Shown piece by piece: positions 7,377 through 18,397 of a stretch of 64,000 bases of DNA (position 1 is its first letter; every line of letters starts with the position of its first letter). This DNA comes from Rothia santali (GTDB lineage Bacteria; Actinomycetota; Actinomycetes; Actinomycetales; Micrococcaceae): contig NZ_JANAFB010000003.1 in assembly GCF_024199905.1 (NCBI RefSeq), positions 62,001 to 126,000 of the forward strand, given 5' to 3'. The translations under genes and the position numbers were made by a program. The notes beneath the pieces were generated by a model. The model was given only the letters and a program-made list of their open reading frames with translations, made no database searches and was not told the origin of the DNA.

Positions 7377-7449
7377 GGGGCTATAGCTCAGTTGGTAGAG
7401 CGCTTCGTTCGCAATGAAGAGGTCAGGGGTTCGAATCCCCTTAGCTCCA
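7377..7449 (+). tRNA. tRNA-Ala, anticodon CGC
   Basis: Cloverleaf read by hand: acceptor GGGGCTA/TAGCTCC, D-arm GCTC/GAGC, anticodon stem CTTCG/TGAAG with loop TTCGCAA (anticodon CGC, decoding GCG), T-arm AGGGG-TTCGAAT-CCCCT, discriminator A. CCA is not encoded. One G-T pair is present in each of the acceptor and anticodon stems. GCG is a frequent Ala codon in this genome. Confidence 0.96.
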
Positions 7450-7460
7450 CGAACACCGAG

Positions 7461-11781: not shown

Positions 11782-12399
11782 CTAGGACTCGCGCACCGCG
11801 CCCGGTTCGGCCTTCGCCAGCGGCGCGGTGTCCGTGTCCTGGCCGGAGCCCGGCGGGGCGTCGGGCCGGGCCTCGGGGTCGGGCTCCACGGCCTGCGCCT
11901 CGGAGCCCTTCCCGCGCCGCGGGGCGCGCCCGCCCAGGTAGACCAGCACGACCATGCCGATCAGGATCGCGATCATGAGCAGCGGACTGCCTTTGATCCA
12001 GTGGGCCAGGTACCCCAGGAGGGGGATGTGGGCCACGTTGAGCCCCACCCGGCTGACGTCGTAGGGGTTCGGGTCGGCGGCGTCGTTGGCGTCGCCCTTG
12101 AGGGTCATCCTGACCCCGCTGCCCCACGGCTCGACGCTGGTGACCCGGTGGGTGATGAGGCCGTCGATGTCCTGCCGGGCCACCGTCACGACGTCGTCGA
12201 CCGCGACGTCCTTCGCGTCGACCGAGCGCGTCAGGGCGAGCGACCCCACCGGCAGCGCGGGCTCCATGGAGCCGGAGACGACCACCACGGGCCGCAGTCC
12301 GAAGACGAGGCAGACCGCCACGACGATGAGCGTGATGGCCCCGGCCAGCGCACCCACGTTGAGCAGGACCGCGCGGATGATTCGGAGTGGTTTGTTCAT
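11782..12399 (-). CDS. SipW-type (ER/archaeal-type) signal peptidase I
   Basis: Membrane-bound signal peptidase, 205 residues from ATG 12397-12399. The nucleophile is in VVVSGSMEPALPVGSL and the general base is His in DGLITHRVTSV, not Lys, which places it in the SipW/SEC11-like subgroup that processes a restricted set of substrates. N- and C-terminal membrane helices (~16-36 and ~150-166) flank the catalytic domain; the tail is acidic and disordered. It is the last gene of a six-gene run whose products carry atypical signal regions, so it is probably their dedicated peptidase. A GTG at 12411, directly next to the preceding stop, is an alternative start. Confidence 0.92.
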   Translation of the reverse strand: MNKPLRIIRAVLLNVGALAGAITLIVVAVCLVFGLRPVVVVSGSMEPALPVGSLALTRSVDAKDVAVDDVVTVARQDIDGLITHRVTSVEPWGSGVRMTLKGDANDAADPNPYDVSRVGLNVAHIPLLGYLAHWIKGSPLLMIAILIGMVVLVYLGGRAPRRGKGSEAQAVEPDPEARPDAPPGSGQDTDTAPLAKAEPGAVRES

Positions 12400-12411
12400 G
12401 TGTTCTAGCAC

Positions 12412-13080
12412 CTATTCGATGACGGGGGTTCCACTGAGACGCATCCCCAGCCGGAATCCGCCGTGGTTCATTTCGCGATCTGGCACGGGCGTCAGAAGCC
12501 TGATCCACAAGCCGAGTCGGCGTTCCGATCCGGGCCGGCCCGGTACGTGGGGAACCTCGTCCTCCTGGGGCGGTCCTCCTCGCCCGATCAGGGTCCCGAG
12601 ATCGACGTCGTGGTCGATCTCCATCGGGGCCCCGTTGACTCCGTCCTCGGCTGTGTCGCCCAACAGAATCTCGCCGGTGTCCTGATCGAAGATGGTCACT
12701 CGCATCCACGGCACGTAGTCGGGCCTCGAAGGATCGGCGGGGGGCTTGGCCGTCACGGCGAGACGCATCGCCATCGGAAGATCGGGAGAGTTGTTGGCCA
12801 CCGTGAAGGTCGTCTTCGCGGTGCGCCCCGGGCGGACATTACGAACGAACTGTGGCCCTCCGATCTTCGCCTGCCCGGACGAGCGGATCAGGCCATTCTG
12901 ATCGACCACGCCGATCCCGTAGGCCGCCGTGCCCATCTCGCTGAACGACAGACGGGCCCGATCCGTGAAGGCCGCGGCCGCCCGGTCGGTCACGAAGAAC
13001 GTCGACCACCCCAGCACCACCACGGCGAACAACGCCAAGACCATTGGCAGCCGTCCTTTGACGGCCGATGCGACGTTCAT
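12412..13080 (-). CDS. exported protein with SipW-type signal region (TasA-like)
   Basis: 222 residues, beginning at ATG 13078-13080, which overlaps the RCC1 gene's stop (ATGA). The hydrophobic segment LPMVLALFAVVVLGWSTFFV runs into AAAAFTDRARLSFSEMG, resembling the A-F-T-D signature after the cleavage point of SipW-dependent proteins. The rest is beta-rich (PGRTAKTTFTVANNSPDLPMAMRLAVTAKPP), as in TasA/camelysin-like secreted proteins. No enzyme motif is seen. Function is inferred from context: a surface or matrix component processed by the adjacent peptidase. Confidence 0.75.
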   Translation of the reverse strand: MNVASAVKGRLPMVLALFAVVVLGWSTFFVTDRAAAAFTDRARLSFSEMGTAAYGIGVVDQNGLIRSSGQAKIGGPQFVRNVRPGRTAKTTFTVANNSPDLPMAMRLAVTAKPPADPSRPDYVPWMRVTIFDQDTGEILLGDTAEDGVNGAPMEIDHDVDLGTLIGRGGPPQEDEVPHVPGRPGSERRLGLWIRLLTPVPDREMNHGGFRLGMRLSGTPVIE

Positions 13081-14600
13081 CTCGATCTCTCCATTCGCGG
13101 CAACCGCATGTAGGTGGGCGGCTGCCTCTTCTTCGTCTCCGTGCTGGTCCACCAGTCGAAGCTGTTGCGCACCTGCGCGTGTCTGTTGTTGTTTGCCGCA
13201 TGAGTCGTCCCGTTCCAGGTCACGACGTCGCCTCCCGTCCGGAAGACCACCGGCGTGTACCCGGAACCGCCGAGACTCTCGATGTCCGCCCCGAGGAAGT
13301 CCAGGCGCATCGGCCATTTGAGAGGCGCCGCCGAGGCTGGGTACGAGGCGAGGAACCCGTCCGGCTCAACGGCCCCGTACTTGCGGGTCCCCCACTGGTA
13401 GACGCGTCCGTTGTCTCCCAGTGCGAATACCATGTCCGTGGTGGGGACGACGCGCGTAGCACGCACCCCGCGTTCGAGGTCGACCTCCGTAGGGGTGGCC
13501 GCTTCAGCCGCGCTCCGCGCACCCCAGGGGACGCCCCACGAGGTCGGGACCGCCGGTCCCACGCCCCAGGCGAGCAGTCGCCCGGAGTCGAGCAGGAAGG
13601 TGTTGCCGTGATAGTGACCCGACATGGAACGGATGCTGCAGTTGTCGGACTGCGCGCCGTTGGGTCCGGTGGGCGGCCCGCTGCACCCCTCCCGTGCGTA
13701 CGCGGAGAGCGTTTGCGAGCGCCGGGGGCTGACGGCAGTGAGAGCGTCCCCGTCGCCCCCCGGTGACGTCTGGTAGGTGTGCCGATTGGCCCAGCCCCAC
13801 CAGTACACGCCGCTGGTCGCGTCATCCGGACGGTGACCCCCGAGGATGACCCAGGAGCTCCAGGTGCCGGCCCCGATGGAATGCGCCGGACCCGGGAGCT
13901 GAACTCGCGTCGGGGCACGATCGGACACAGACTGTCGGATCCCCTGCCCCAGCAGCCCGCGAGAGCCCTGGTTGTTGCCCCAGGTGTAGACGTCGCCGTT
14001 CTCCAGCAGCGCCATGAATGCTCCGGATGACGAGGCGAGGTCGATGACCCGTCCGGGGAGGTGGACCTCTCCGGGCGCCCACCATGCCTGCTCGCCCGAC
14101 GCCGTGGCACCTCGGCCCATGACCGAGTTCCGCTGGTTCCCGCCCCAGGTGAACACCTTGCCGTCTTCGGAGAGAGCGGCCAGACCCGTGAAGTCTGGGT
14201 TGTCGGACCAGAATCCGTCCAGGCTGGTCCCCTGCACCTTGACCGCTCGACGGGCGTCAGCCCGGTCGGCCCCCTGGCCTGGAAGCGAGACCGTCGATAC
14301 CGGAGCAGCGGAATGCACCTCGCGGTGCCCCGTCCCGGAGAGCCCGTTGCCGCGATACCCCCAGATGGCGATGTCGCCATCTGGCCGGATGGCCACGGAC
14401 GTCCCGGCGAGGTACGTCTGCTGGGCTTTCCACGACGCGGTCGGCGTCACCGGAGCCTGAGCCGGATCGAGCCTGGCGACGACCTGGTCGGTGTGCACCG
14501 CGCTGGTGCTCCCCACGAATGCTGCGGCCACCATTCCGAGCGCACCGGTGGAGACCAGGGTGGAGATCATGGCCCGGATGAGCCTTCTCCCCCGCCTCAT
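13077..14600 (-). CDS. secreted RCC1 beta-propeller repeat protein
   Basis: 507 residues: an N-terminal signal (RLIRAMISTLVSTGALGMVAAAFVGSTSA) followed by VHTDQVVARL, similar to the other exported proteins of the cluster, then RCC1 blades. Repeats are visible as SVAIRPDGDIAIWGYRGNG, LAALSEDGKVFTWGGNQRNS, FMALLENGDVYTWGNNQGS, TFLLDSGRLLAWGVGP, VFALGDNGRVYQWGTRKYG and VFRTGGDVVTWNG, roughly six or seven blades. RCC1 propellers mediate protein binding; an extracellular adhesive or scaffold role is inferred. Start and stop both overlap neighbours by four bases, so it is part of a coupled operon. Confidence 0.88.
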   Translation of the reverse strand: MRRGRRLIRAMISTLVSTGALGMVAAAFVGSTSAVHTDQVVARLDPAQAPVTPTASWKAQQTYLAGTSVAIRPDGDIAIWGYRGNGLSGTGHREVHSAAPVSTVSLPGQGADRADARRAVKVQGTSLDGFWSDNPDFTGLAALSEDGKVFTWGGNQRNSVMGRGATASGEQAWWAPGEVHLPGRVIDLASSSGAFMALLENGDVYTWGNNQGSRGLLGQGIRQSVSDRAPTRVQLPGPAHSIGAGTWSSWVILGGHRPDDATSGVYWWGWANRHTYQTSPGGDGDALTAVSPRRSQTLSAYAREGCSGPPTGPNGAQSDNCSIRSMSGHYHGNTFLLDSGRLLAWGVGPAVPTSWGVPWGARSAAEAATPTEVDLERGVRATRVVPTTDMVFALGDNGRVYQWGTRKYGAVEPDGFLASYPASAAPLKWPMRLDFLGADIESLGGSGYTPVVFRTGGDVVTWNGTTHAANNNRHAQVRNSFDWWTSTETKKRQPPTYMRLPRMERSR

Positions 14601-15133
14601 CGATGAAGCCTCCGTCCCCGGGTAGCCCGCAGCGTGAACATCACACCCAGGCAGAGCAGAAGGAGAAAGACTCCGGCGCCGGTGGCAAGCGCGAGGCCGT
14701 GGAGAGCCCCTCCGCCAGAAGCGGGAGGCAGGGGGACGGGCTCCTCCCTCCCGGTCGCGACGACGTGGAGCGTGAACGTTCCGTTGGACTCGAGCGAGGG
14801 GTCCGACTCTGCCGGGTGGCGCAGCGACCCGCGCAGCCGGACCTGCCGCGGCGCCTCGAGGGTTCCCAGGGGAAAGTTCGTGGTCTTCATCTCCACCTCG
14901 TGGTCGAGGACGACCTGCCCCTGATCGTCCATGATGGACAGCTCGAGGGGGCGGTTCGGCCGCGGTGAGAACCCGTCGAATTCGATGGTGACGCTCAACG
15001 ACAGCGAGTGCGTACCGGGATTCGTGACGTCGATGGAGAAGTCGGTCGGGCTGCCGGGACTGGGTATGTGAAACGTGCGCACCTCAGCAACAGGAGGAAC
15101 TGAGGGGGTGCCACCGGAAGCACGCGGAATCAT
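14597..15133 (-). CDS. membrane-anchored beta-sandwich protein of the RCC1/SipW cluster
   Basis: 178 residues with no obvious signal peptide, a beta-rich domain (DFSIDVTNPGTHSLSLSVTIEFDGF, VVLDHEVEMKTTNFPLGTLEAPRQVRLRG) and a C-terminal anchor: PLPPASGGG, a ~20-residue hydrophobic helix and RATRGRRLHR. This resembles a sortase sorting signal in layout but lacks LPXTG or LAXTG. The ATG overlaps the preceding stop (ATGA) with AGGTG eight bases upstream. Because the upstream gene has a signal peptide but no anchor and this one the reverse, they could be halves of one protein. Family not recognised. Confidence 0.7.
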   Translation of the reverse strand: MIPRASGGTPSVPPVAEVRTFHIPSPGSPTDFSIDVTNPGTHSLSLSVTIEFDGFSPRPNRPLELSIMDDQGQVVLDHEVEMKTTNFPLGTLEAPRQVRLRGSLRHPAESDPSLESNGTFTLHVVATGREEPVPLPPASGGGALHGLALATGAGVFLLLLCLGVMFTLRATRGRRLHR

Positions 15134-15714
15134 GCCGTTTCACCTCGCAGGACGGTCGTGAACCCAATGGGTCGTCCGCCGGAGAGCGACGGATCGACGG
15201 AGTCCGAGGGTAGGGACAGCTCGATGCGGACGGTGCGGGCGACGGCCGTCTCCCATCCGTCGATGACGATGGGGTGAGCCTCGAGCCCTTCAAGAGTCTG
15301 ATGATCCGCAAGGGGTGAACCGTCGTCTACCCTCACTGTGTACAGAGCCTTCGCGGCCACGTCGTTGCCTTGCGGATCGATCGACAGTCGAACGGGACCG
15401 GTGTCGTCGGATGTCGTCACCACGTCGAATTCCGTGGTGGGCTCCGGCTCTCCGCTGCCGTGGAAAGGTATGACGGCGTTGCCTTCGGCGGAGAGCTCGT
15501 AGGCGCTTTCCTCGGTGGACGCCTGGACGAGCGATCCATCGGGGGCGACGATGGCCAGGTCGTAGTCGACGGAGACTTCCTCGTCGTCGAGGATGATGTC
15601 GATGGGCGGGGCCATGGGCGCGGCATTGGTCGCGGGGATGCTGCCCGCCGCGATGGCGCTCGCTGCCAGGACGGGGATGCCGAGGGCGCGCCAGTGACTG
15701 ATCTTGCGTGTCAT
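15130..15714 (-). CDS. small secreted protein of the RCC1/SipW cluster
   Basis: 194 residues with a Sec-type signal peptide (MTRKISHWRALGIPVLAASAIAAGSIPATNA, cleavage near 31) and an acidic, beta-rich mature part (IDIILDDEEVSVDYDLAIVAPDGSLVQAST..., ARTVRIELSLPSDSVDP). No cysteines and no known motif. It follows a strong hairpin that separates it from the upstream exported protein, and its stop overlaps the next gene's start. Family not recognised; an extracellular structural partner is the contextual guess. Confidence 0.72.
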   Translation of the reverse strand: MTRKISHWRALGIPVLAASAIAAGSIPATNAAPMAPPIDIILDDEEVSVDYDLAIVAPDGSLVQASTEESAYELSAEGNAVIPFHGSGEPEPTTEFDVVTTSDDTGPVRLSIDPQGNDVAAKALYTVRVDDGSPLADHQTLEGLEAHPIVIDGWETAVARTVRIELSLPSDSVDPSLSGGRPIGFTTVLRGETA

Positions 15715-15743
15715 GGGGGCGTGTTCTTCCTGTGGTCAGGGGC

Positions 15744-15774
15744 GGCACCCGCGGGGCAGGGCCCCGCGGGTGCC
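15744..15774 (-). terminator. intra-cluster hairpin (attenuator or partial terminator)
   Basis: Perfect 14-bp stem, arms 15744-15757 and 15761-15774, three-base loop, 15 bases after the stop of the first exported-protein gene and 30 bases before the next start. It would stop or reduce read-through, so the first gene would be made in excess over the rest. Confidence 0.78.
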
Positions 15775-15788
15775 GTGCCGGCGAGGGG

Positions 15789-16448
15789 TCAGCTCTGCTC
15801 GATGGAGGAACCGGAGACCTGCATCTGGAGGCGGGCACTCTGGCCGTTCAGCGCATTGTCGTTCTCGCTGGTGGGAAGCCACACGTCGAAGGTGATGGAG
15901 CTCTCCTCATAAGGAGCGAGCTCCGTCAGCTCCACGGCCTTCTGCAGCTGGGTGAAGGACAGGTTGTCGTGGACCCGGCCGTCCGGATCGCTGATCTTGA
16001 AGCGCAGCGTGTCGCGGAAGAGCTGGCTCTGGCTGCCGCGGTCGTTGAGGTTGACCCCCAGCGTCGAGCCGAACTTCGCGGAGTCGTTGCGGACCGGGAT
16101 GGTGACGGTCCGCGGCTCGCCGCCGGGCATGATCGAGTCGGCGCCGGGCAGGTTGACGGGAACACCCGCGGGGTCGTCGGCCTCCTGCCACCCCTCGATG
16201 AACTCGCCCTTCTCGTCCGTGGCCCCCACCTGGAGGTTGTAGGCCTTGGTCCCGTCCCCTGTCCCCGGACCGATCCCGCCGTCGCCGCTGGCGTAGTTGC
16301 CGATGTTCAGGTAGGCGTTGTCCAGGAATGCCGCGGCGGTGATCAGGGCGCCGACGCCGGCGAGGGAGCCCCAGGCCAGAATCGCCTTGCGGCGGTCCCG
16401 ACGCTTCGCGGCGCGGTCCTCGGGGGACATTGTCTCAGTAGTGGTCAT
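15789..16448 (-). CDS. alternate-signal (SipW-dependent, TasA-like) exported protein
   Basis: 219 residues. A charged cytoplasmic leader (MTTTETMSPEDRAAKRRDRRK) precedes the hydrophobic stretch AILAWGSLAGVGALITAAAF and the sequence LDNAYLNIGNY, the arrangement of alternate-type signal peptides cleaved by SipW-like peptidases. The mature part is beta-rich and acidic, without cysteines (EPRTVTIPVRNDSAKFGSTLGVNLNDRGSQ, LAPYEESSITFDVWLP). GGGAG lies before the ATG. It is first in the cluster, followed by a terminator-like hairpin, as expected for the major subunit of a surface structure. TasA-like function is inference. Confidence 0.8.
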   Translation of the reverse strand: MTTTETMSPEDRAAKRRDRRKAILAWGSLAGVGALITAAAFLDNAYLNIGNYASGDGGIGPGTGDGTKAYNLQVGATDEKGEFIEGWQEADDPAGVPVNLPGADSIMPGGEPRTVTIPVRNDSAKFGSTLGVNLNDRGSQSQLFRDTLRFKISDPDGRVHDNLSFTQLQKAVELTELAPYEESSITFDVWLPTSENDNALNGQSARLQMQVSGSSIEQS

Positions 16449-16555
16449 TCTTTTCTCCCATAGTGACTAACTCACGCTTTCGCCACCCCGCGGTTGAACG
16501 GGGCGGAAGCGATGATGCCAGGCTAGGAAAAAAGTCGAGGGGGTGATTTTAATGC

Positions 16556-16576
16556 CGTTCGTTGACATTTCGAACG
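16556..16576. promoter_or_regulatory. inverted repeat, candidate LuxR-type operator
   Basis: CGTTCG-N9-CGAACG in the 153-bp space between the LuxR-type regulator and the first exported-protein gene, about 110 bases before that gene's start. Placement suits autologous control, but the match to a known operator is untested. Confidence 0.4.
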
Positions 16577-16601
16577 CGAGGTGTCAGGGGTCATATCGCG
16601 C

Positions 16602-18077
16602 CTAGATGAAACCGATTCTCTCGGCCGCCAACCGAAGCTCGTCGCGGCTTCTGACACCGAGTTTTCGGTACAGCATCCGCTGGTGCGTCTTCAGGGTGTT
16701 GAAGGATATGTACAGGTCATCTGCGATGTCGCGGCGGTTCGTATCGCTGCACAGGGCGGGCAGCAGCTCCGCCCCCCGCCGCGTCAGCCGGGGCCTGACC
16801 GCCTCGGCGTCCTCGAACTGGGGCCACCCGGGCACCGAGACCTCCGCGAAGCGGCGCACGCGCTGGGTGAACGCCTCCATCTCACCCTCCCTCAGCCCGC
16901 CGGACCGCTCGAGCCCCTCCGCCAGCAGCGCGGCCGCGCCCTCCGGACGGCCGCACCGCAGCGCCGCCTCCGTGCCCAGGGCGCACCGCCGCAGCTCCGT
17001 GCGCCGCAGCAGGCGCGTGTCCCCGCGCAGGGCCACCGCGTCCCGGAACGCCTCCTCGGCGCGCCCGGCGGCCAGCGCCGCCCGGGTGCGCACCAGACGC
17101 GTCAGGAAGAACTGAGGGTCCGCCTCCTCCAGGATCGACTCCGCCTCCTCGACCCGGCCGTCTTGGAGGGCGAAGGACGCCAGCGCGACCGGGAAGGCGC
17201 TGCGCGGGAACCCGTCGCCCCGCCGCGCCTCCGGCACCTGCCGCTCCAGCTCGGTCAGCCGCGCGCGGAACAGCTCCTCTCCCCCGGTGCTCCGGCACGC
17301 CCGCCAGAGGGCGTAGACGTAGAAGGGCCACATCATGCCGAGCGAGGCGATGCGGGCGGTGGGCAGGCGCTCGACGAGGACCCCCGGGCGCTCCGCGTCG
17401 TCGAGGATGCTCCGGGTGAACCGCGTGTCCAGGTCGATCCGGTCCTCGACCCAGCTCTTGGTCCGCCCCGAGTACCCCGAGGCGTTCAGCTTGAGCCGGG
17501 CCAGCTCGTCGTCGCCGAAGAGCACGTGGATCAGCGCGGACTTGACCAGGGAGTCGCGGCCGTACATCGCCATGCGGCGCGGCGGCTCGGCGGCCTGCAC
17601 GGCCCCGAAGCACTCCAGCGCCGCGGACAGGTCACCGCCCAGCATGTTGGTGACGCCGGCCTCGTAGGAGCACGTCGCCTTCCAGACCGCGGGATCGATG
17701 CCCTCCGGCCGCCCCATGATCAGGTCCCGCGCCGCGCGCCCCTTCTCCATGGCCGCGCGCGGGTGGCTGCGGCGCTGGTCGATCAGCTCGCGGGCCTGGG
17801 CCCAGACGCCCCGGTCCAGCTGATCCTCCTCGAGCCGGGAGCAGCCGAAGGGACCCACGCCCCGCGAACCTCCCCCGCCCGAGACGCCGAACACGTACCG
17901 CACCACCTCGGAGGTGGCCGCCCGCTCCCGCGGCAGCGTCTCCAGCAGGCGGCGCATGCGCCAGGGCCGGATGGCGTGCCATGACTCCAGGGGACGCCGC
18001 TCCACCAGGTCGAGCAGCGCGTCCCCGTCCCCCGCCCAGATGGCCTTCTTCAGATCCAGCAATGTCGTCGCAACCAT
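16602..18077 (-). CDS. LuxR-type regulator with helical N-terminal domain
   Basis: 491 residues from ATG 18075-18077. The C-terminal ~65 residues are a LuxR/GerE helix-turn-helix (RLTRRGAELLPALCSDTNRRDIADDLYISFNTLKTHQRMLYRKLGVRSRDELRLAAERIGFI). The rest is Ala/Leu/Arg-rich and helical, like the TPR-type part of LAL regulators, but I find no Walker A, so an ATPase domain is absent. It is transcribed in the same direction as, and directly upstream of, the exported-protein/SipW cluster and is the best candidate for its regulator. No ribosome-binding site is clear; a GTG at 18111-18113 is an alternative start. Confidence 0.85.
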   Translation of the reverse strand: MVATTLLDLKKAIWAGDGDALLDLVERRPLESWHAIRPWRMRRLLETLPRERAATSEVVRYVFGVSGGGGSRGVGPFGCSRLEEDQLDRGVWAQARELIDQRRSHPRAAMEKGRAARDLIMGRPEGIDPAVWKATCSYEAGVTNMLGGDLSAALECFGAVQAAEPPRRMAMYGRDSLVKSALIHVLFGDDELARLKLNASGYSGRTKSWVEDRIDLDTRFTRSILDDAERPGVLVERLPTARIASLGMMWPFYVYALWRACRSTGGEELFRARLTELERQVPEARRGDGFPRSAFPVALASFALQDGRVEEAESILEEADPQFFLTRLVRTRAALAAGRAEEAFRDAVALRGDTRLLRRTELRRCALGTEAALRCGRPEGAAALLAEGLERSGGLREGEMEAFTQRVRRFAEVSVPGWPQFEDAEAVRPRLTRRGAELLPALCSDTNRRDIADDLYISFNTLKTHQRMLYRKLGVRSRDELRLAAERIGFI

Positions 18078-18397
18078 GAGCACATGATGTACCCGGACGC
18101 GGAAGGGGCCCACGAATTGTCAACCAGCGGCGCGTCCGCACCCCGCCAGCCGGCCAACGCCGGGTCACACTCGGGTCATTTCACAGAGGATTCGCTGATC
18201 AGAAACCACATGAAAGGTCCGCCACAGGGTATTCGGCCCGGGTGAGATCCCGGCGGCATTACGCTTCTCCGAGCGCATGCGGAGAGTAAATGTGCTATAA
18301 ATCACCACGATTTGACGCGTTCGGCGCTTAAATCCCCGATCGTGACGCGACGATGAACGCCACCGGAGCGGACCCGGCTGTGCGATCATCATGACTC

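Follow-up and report, generated by a model that had tools for sequence, protein, structure and literature searches.

Fibres of TasA-like proteins are best known from Bacillus, and to our knowledge their tip and base are poorly defined. According to the accessible parts of the respective reports, TasA subunits polymerise through an N-terminal strand (PMC9674648), TapA, whose fold is complete, acts as a donor through its N-terminus and probably does not lie within the filament (PMC10151520), TasA has Phe at P2', a kind of site that Escherichia coli signal peptidase I cuts badly (PMC10269814), and a terminator is predicted after the matrix-protein gene bsaA of Clostridium perfringens (PMC7395162). 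Here, we describe a seven-gene cassette on a 64,000-nucleotide stretch of the Rothia santali genome (contig NZ_JANAFB010000003.1, positions 62,001 to 126,000; hereafter the window), which encodes a LuxR-type regulator, three putative TasA-like subunits (genes 2, 3 and 6), a beta-sandwich protein (gene 4), a secreted RCC1 beta-propeller and a SipW-type signal peptidase. The cassette is a recurring unit with a patchy distribution. We consider it fairly probable that the operon makes a TasA/camelysin-like surface fibre with the RCC1 propeller as a donor-only end part, which in some relatives would be anchored to the wall.

As far as tapA-sipW-tasA of Bacillus subtilis is described in the accessible text of PMC9674648 and PMC10151520, the cassette shares with it a dedicated SipW and exported subunits that are small and rich in beta structure and have signals with an aromatic P2' residue, and the gene content suggests that both have a completely folded partner acting as N-terminal donor, TapA there and the RCC1 protein here. 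It differs from the B. subtilis operon in that an RCC1 propeller would replace TapA, in its up to five paralogous subunits, in the sortase-type anchor of some relatives and in the often present LuxR regulator, and the subunits of the window miss the Pfam TasA model. Several SipW substrates together are also described for TasA-CalY-CapP of Bacillus cereus (PMC13082335), and sipW-bsaABCRSD of C. perfringens has a regulator pair in the operon and a terminator predicted behind the gene for its major subunit (PMC7395162). Unlike the cassettes with a sortase-type anchor, the B. cereus system is reported as sortase-independent (PMC13082335) and the C. perfringens system as unaffected by loss of srtB (PMC7395162), and the accessible parts of both reports mention no propeller protein. 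A search of PubMed Central, with subscription papers and preprints outside its scope, returned no paper that combines SipW with RCC1 or RCC1 with TasA, and no report was found of an RCC1 propeller part in Bacillus fibres.

At 16 loci in 15 genomes, one or more SipW-type subunits are encoded together with RCC1 and SipW, a count that includes G245 and the later additions G808 and G782, and in which contig-split copies and G228 rest on partial sequences. An earlier reading of the window from its letters and open reading frames (ORFs), hereafter the sequence-only reading, had taken independent scatter of these genes in related genomes as a sign against a system. The core of peptidase, RCC1 protein and SipW-type subunits stays together across several families; the anchor and the LuxR gene, each at seven of the 16 loci, are less constant. 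Among 59 relatives, the gene 2 search matched two genomes (that of the window, through a further copy, and another member of its genus; 2 of 35 within the genus), and across the order the gene 2 profile matched 48 of 347 genomes at E<=1e-3. All five further loci with E<1e-10 (G285, G135, G344, G324:C13, G306) carry RCC1 and SipW. The next locus, G228 (1.1e-8), is also a cassette, with an incomplete RCC1 protein 85% identical to that of L048, and G094 (1.4e-8, L013) is an ordinary SipW locus without RCC1. Weak matches between 1.4e-8 and 1e-3 were not scored as cassettes; the 14 that were examined are ordinary SipW loci.

Approached from the propeller side, the same 347 genomes gave RCC1 profile matches in at least 42 genomes at E<=1e-6 and at no fewer than 11 loci in 10 genomes at E<1e-20, all counts of the order-wide and class-wide RCC1 scans being lower bounds because at most three or four candidates were scored per genome. 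SipW lies within 5 kb at nine of these 11 loci, four of which (G283, G147, G091, G119) were in neither search alignment. The tenth (G285) has a partial SipW in the first 204 bases of its contig, and the eleventh is the second copy in the genome of the window, situated at a contig end, for which contig C47 supplies what fits as the missing part, including SipW and a LuxR gene. Weaker RCC1 matches (1e-6 to 1e-20) were found in 32 more genomes, and only G245 proved to be a cassette among the eight examined (G245, G120, G071, G271, G303, G253, G216, G239). Control loci behaved differently: the ordinary SipW loci (L013-L026) have SipW in 14/14 and RCC1 in 0/14 within the 13-20 kb read, and 25 ordinary RCC1 loci (L027-L034, L036-L044, L053-L057, L060-L062), some of them short, yielded one weak SipW-like match (L056, about 4 kb away).

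The patchiness shows in the counts by genus, family and class. Cassette-type RCC1 profile matches occur in 2 of 57 genomes of the genus Brevibacterium (g8), and cassettes in 5 of 150 genomes of family f8 (a sixth match, G842, is an ordinary RCC1 locus) and in 4 of 18 of family f20 at E<=1e-15, a threshold at which G216 and G239 are ordinary loci and G228 is missed. The class-wide RCC1 scan matched at least one of 394 genomes, that of the window being the only match among the candidates scored, and a scan of named genomes gave 18 loci with a cassette only at L035 (Brevibacterium), which is on the contig already seen in G285. Viral contigs scanned with the gene 2 profile contained no relative, and a viral structure library gave no informative match. 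The window's genome also contains a second, different cassette (L005 on G000:C38 and L050 on G000:C47), apparently split over two contig ends and closer to that of G019.

The sequence-only reading had proposed a secreted RCC1 beta-propeller, and this is borne out by matches to PF13540 and PF00415 above cut-off, a match to PF25390 (E 2.5e-25, 90 bits, under the 150-bit cut-off) and a hydrophobic N-terminus ahead of the RCC1 repeats. Judged by its N-terminus in the relatives, the propeller protein is probably itself a SipW substrate, a role that the sequence-only reading had not given it. A SipW-type motif (small-x-[FWY]-x-D immediately after the hydrophobic core) is present in 12 of 14 cassette RCC1 proteins and in none of 23 control RCC1 proteins (Fisher 4.9e-8; 0.4 expected in shuffles), a contrast that is weakened in that the pattern was generalised after the family was seen and the sequences are related. 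Four controls without a recognisable signal had been dropped, and three of the remaining 23 have one common N-terminus. The two cassette proteins that miss the motif are the window RCC1 protein (AVHTD variant) and the second RCC1 protein of L049; the RCC1 protein of L058, outside the 14, also carries it (AAGFRD). At L059, an RCC1 propeller and a TIGR04089-like region (34.6 bits, below the cut-off of 60) are parts of a single protein (L059:8619-11309), which adjoins a protein that matches TIGR04089, an NCBI SipW-export family, with 166.8 bits against that cut-off, as well as a SipW peptidase. Elsewhere, L060:2111-5758 encodes an RCC1 protein with an LPTTG end amid LPXTG-bearing genes, possibly a second kind of propeller-bearing surface structure.

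By profile comparison, genes 2, 3 and 6 are mutual relatives: the gene 2 family matches gene 6 at 98.4% (hhalign, E 6e-15), the families of genes 6 and 3 match at 97.2%, and those of genes 2 and 3 at 73.1%. Genes 2 and 6 carry SipW-type signals, with an aromatic P2' residue and then Asp (AAFLD and AAFTD), a type that the sequence-only reading had assigned to two exported proteins, and homologues of gene 3 in L009 and L011 have AAFTD and AGFTD. Across the cassettes the motif is found in 27 of 43 subunits (3 of them from cut starts) and in 0 of 7 gene 4 homologues. Several paralogous subunits are present in most cassettes read. Structures were predicted for genes 2 and 4. The gene 2 model is poor (predicted local distance difference test, pLDDT, 53.3); its top Foldseek match among 350,542 PDB chains is TasA 5OF2 (E 2e-3, TM 0.39/0.44). 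In the divergent cassette L049, a subunit matches PF12389 (camelysin/TasA) with 26.5 bits against a cut-off of 22.5, and for the gene 2 homologues of L008 and L009, which are closer, no relevant Pfam or NCBIfam match was obtained. The earlier guess of a fibre, matrix or adhesive layer thus gains from the family matches in divergent relatives, the TasA hit of gene 2 and the homology of genes 2, 3 and 6, from which a fibre itself may be inferred.

The peptidase is of the SipW/archaeal type of signal peptidase I (S26B), as the sequence-only reading had it (TIGR02228, E 1.8e-19, 70.1 bits, cut-off 51.85), and scores 64.3 bits, under the cut-off of 190, against NF046067, the Bacillus SipW equivalog. 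Ser48 and His88 are invariant in an alignment of 7 sequences; from family knowledge we take them to be the catalytic pair, with His in place of Lys. In a tree of 29 peptidases, 14 from loci without RCC1 form one supported clade (99/99), made up of 13 from the ordinary SipW loci L013-L026 and that of L052. None of the 13 cassette peptidases belongs to this clade, nor do the non-cassette peptidases of L015 and L056. The RCC1 label requires 3 changes on this tree versus 9.8 in shuffles. The cassettes resemble the alternate-signal proteins TIGR04089/TIGR04088 in having SipW-type signals next to a SipW peptidase, and differ from the ordinary loci of these families (L013 and L019 match TIGR04088 above cut-off) in the propeller and in this separation of the peptidases.

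Where present, gene 4 looks like a wall anchor, judging from its C-terminus. Homologues were found at seven of the 16 loci (window, L007, L008, L009, L010, L011, L049), and at the ends of those of L007-L011 a membrane helix is preceded by LPRTG, LPFTG, LAVTG, LAITG or LAATG; the L009 homologue also matches a sortase-surface model for LAVTG below threshold. The membrane-anchored partner of the sequence-only reading is sortase-anchor-like in relatives, and in the window it has no N-terminal signal. Sortases were found in all 8 cassette genomes tested (30 matches) and lend weak support to anchoring; among the nine cassettes of these genomes only that of G344 has one nearby (L009:302-679, G344:C84:65302-65679, about 4.4 kb beyond the cassette SipW), the others being distant. 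A sortase-assembled (SpaA-type) pilus was also considered and rated low, as among aligned cassette proteins only the gene 4 homologues carry LPXTG-like ends.

The cassette spans 18113-11782 of the window (Table 1). Seven consecutive same-strand genes had been read there, and all seven are intact ORFs. The claim that most are joined by four-base overlaps was wrong: only three of six junctions are (gene 3/gene 4, gene 4/RCC1, RCC1/gene 6), two others being gaps of 153 (LuxR-gene 2) and 74 nucleotides (gene 2-gene 3), and gene 6 and the SipW gene abut if the latter starts at GTG 12411. Gene 6 probably starts at 13080, which gives 222 amino acids. Pfam or NCBIfam matches above cut-off were obtained for three of the proteins (regulator, RCC1 protein and peptidase), and genes 2, 3, 4 and 6 gave none at that level. 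A tRNA-Ala gene (anticodon cgc) lies at 7377-7450 of the window, about 4.3 kb past the downstream end of the cassette.

Table 1. The cassette and its non-coding features in the window, in order of transcription
Feature	Position	Strand	Remarks
LuxR-type regulator	16602..18113	-	503 amino acids; C-terminal GerE helix-turn-helix PF00196; TPR sub-threshold
Leader between regulator and gene 2	16449..16601	-	153 nucleotides; one sigma-70-like site 16573-16546, consensus match only
Gene 2, proposed major TasA-like fibre subunit	15789..16448	-	219 amino acids; gene 2-family profile, TAAAFLD, Foldseek TasA 5OF2
Intercistronic hairpin 3' of gene 2	15715..15788	-	15-bp perfect stem; minimum free energy -44.4, z -5.2 and -5.4
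Gene 3, exported minor subunit	15130..15714	-	194 amino acids; ordinary AxA-like signal in this genome; profile homology to genes 6 and 2
Gene 4, beta-sandwich with C-terminal transmembrane helix	14597..15133	-	178 amino acids; sortase-type anchor in relatives having gene 4; no signal peptide here
RCC1 beta-propeller protein	13077..14600	-	507 amino acids; PF25390/PF13540/PF00415; SipW-like N-terminus TSAVHTD
Gene 6, second SipW-type TasA-like subunit	12412..13080	-	motif AAAAFTD; hhalign to gene 2 family
SipW/archaeal-type signal peptidase I	11782..12411	-	start GTG 12411 or ATG 12399; TIGR02228

The LuxR assignment of the sequence-only reading is upheld by a GerE domain above cut-off (PF00196, E 1.7e-8). 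GerE genes adjoin seven cassettes (window, L004, L008, L010, L011, L050, L051), whereas the stretches scanned around the other nine yielded no such gene. Of the seven, five encode large proteins in which GerE exceeds its cut-off, and an AAA domain above cut-off is present only in L008. Between 11400 and 18500, one sigma-70-like site was found versus 0.3 expected by shuffles, as a consensus match only. Hairpins after gene 2 also occur in L009, L011 and L058 (z -3.5 to -5.6), and L010 has a 14-bp stem with a z of only about -2. In L008 the gap after gene 2 has no hairpin, and a real gap at this position is lacking in L004 and L007. Stems of at least 11 bp were present in 10 of 118 intergenic gaps tested, four of the 10 being gene 2 gaps.

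The GC content at third codon positions (GC3) of genes 3, 4, RCC1 and 6 is 0.785-0.833 versus a mean of 0.948 for 51 called genes, and they make up four of the five lowest values; gene 2 is on the low side (0.914) and the peptidase is at 0.961. The low GC3 of this middle block suggests that it was imported. Among the relatives, the whole L008 cassette and parts of that of L058 are low in GC3 compared with their surroundings, and the cassettes of L004, L009, L010 and L011 are not.

From the gene content, the co-occurrence, the motif and the subunit homology, we infer the following course of assembly. SipW would cut alternate signals of the A-A-F-x-D type off the products of genes 2 and 6, the RCC1 protein and, in some relatives, gene 3. 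The N-terminal strand released by each cut would then occupy the groove of the following subunit, a donor-strand assembly by analogy with TasA. A propeller is a closed fold that could give a strand and take none and so would sit, as an initiator, a cap or a tip adhesin, at the fibre end that corresponds to the site of TapA action in Bacillus. In relatives having the gene, the gene 4 protein would take up the final strand and thereby attach the fibre base to the wall; it would only accept because it combines an ordinary signal, a beta-sandwich and a sortase motif with no donor strand. Gene 2 would provide the major subunit, the hairpin behind it may keep the downstream parts scarce, and the LuxR-family protein may control expression. 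As the anchor lacks a signal in this strain, its fibres may be released or held otherwise.

A number of observations weigh against this fibre reading. The TasA match of gene 2 misses the threshold of 0.001 and comes from a model with a pLDDT of 53.3, no window protein matches PF12389 or the NCBIfam SipW-substrate models, and a PF12389 scan of the own genome was equally negative. Gene 2 and gene 4 are unrelated in profile comparison (0.5%), and the gene 4 model (pLDDT 70.1), an eight-stranded sandwich with a C-terminal helix, best matches GOLD domains, with no TasA among the 50 matches listed. The strict motif is absent from 16 of the 43 subunits, among them gene 3 of the window, to which the earlier claim of SipW-type signals does not extend, and the window RCC1 protein has His in place of the F/Y/W of its relatives; a 42-residue signal matrix trained on 15 ordinary-locus proteins did not separate cassette RCC1 proteins from controls. 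No gene 4 homologue was found in the complete cassettes L004 and L058, so that with seven of 16 loci a wall anchor is not general, and the LuxR link is modest, as some GerE gene is also present in 4 of 14 ordinary SipW loci. Partial decay of the window cassette is conceivable: it has no counterpart of the X gene seen in relatives, and gene 4, which retains the four-base overlap with gene 3 seen in L009, has an in-frame stop just 5' of its ATG and no clean sortase motif. The apparent losses in gene 4, unless due to an assembly error, the altered gene 3 and RCC1 motifs, the absent X gene and the foreign-looking GC3 of the middle block would all fit a system that is real in relatives and not working in this strain. 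We nevertheless hold such a decaying copy to be rather improbable, given seven intact ORFs with tight overlaps and a second cassette in the same genome.

Other explanations concern the function of the proteins. BLIP-II is a secreted RCC1-like propeller of Streptomyces, and such propellers with inhibitor roles are known in actinobacteria, so that the RCC1 protein might be an inhibitor of this kind or an antibacterial or competition factor, with the TasA-like proteins as its carriers. This is very unlikely in view of the linkage of RCC1 to SipW and SipW-type subunits at 16 loci and the SipW-type N-terminus that sets cassette RCC1 proteins apart from 23 controls; moreover, no beta-lactamase gene was noticed beside the cassettes, although no search aimed at one was run. 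Closer to the data is a SipW-processed surface coat, in which the exported proteins would sit on the wall singly or as a complex without forming a polymer and the propeller, exported alongside, would be a surface lectin or binding protein. SipW implies processing only, and the gene 4 sandwich resembles a generic binding domain. Against a coat stand the camelysin/TasA-family and SipW-export-family matches in divergent relatives, the several paralogous subunits in most cassettes and the hairpin behind the subunit gene that is best conserved, which parallels the terminator predicted for bsaA in the accessible part of PMC7395162, and we regard a coat as unlikely. A more specific version of the fibre proposal is a Gram-positive donor-strand pilus of fixed polarity, with an RCC1 tip adhesin, a shaft of paralogous TasA-like subunits and, where present, a sortase-linked, acceptor-only base, in which the block of tip and minor subunits (genes 3-4-RCC1-6) would be swapped by horizontal transfer while the major subunit and the peptidase on either side stay resident. 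We rate this lower, as a tentative and rather doubtful extension, because the anchor is present at only seven of 16 loci.

The TasA/camelysin-like fibre with a propeller at its end thus remains our preferred proposal. The cassette suggests that some actinobacteria cap TasA-like fibres with a large propeller and that some of its relatives bind the base to the wall. It would offer a testable role for a class of secreted RCC1 proteins and for uncharacterised 'alternate signal' proteins.

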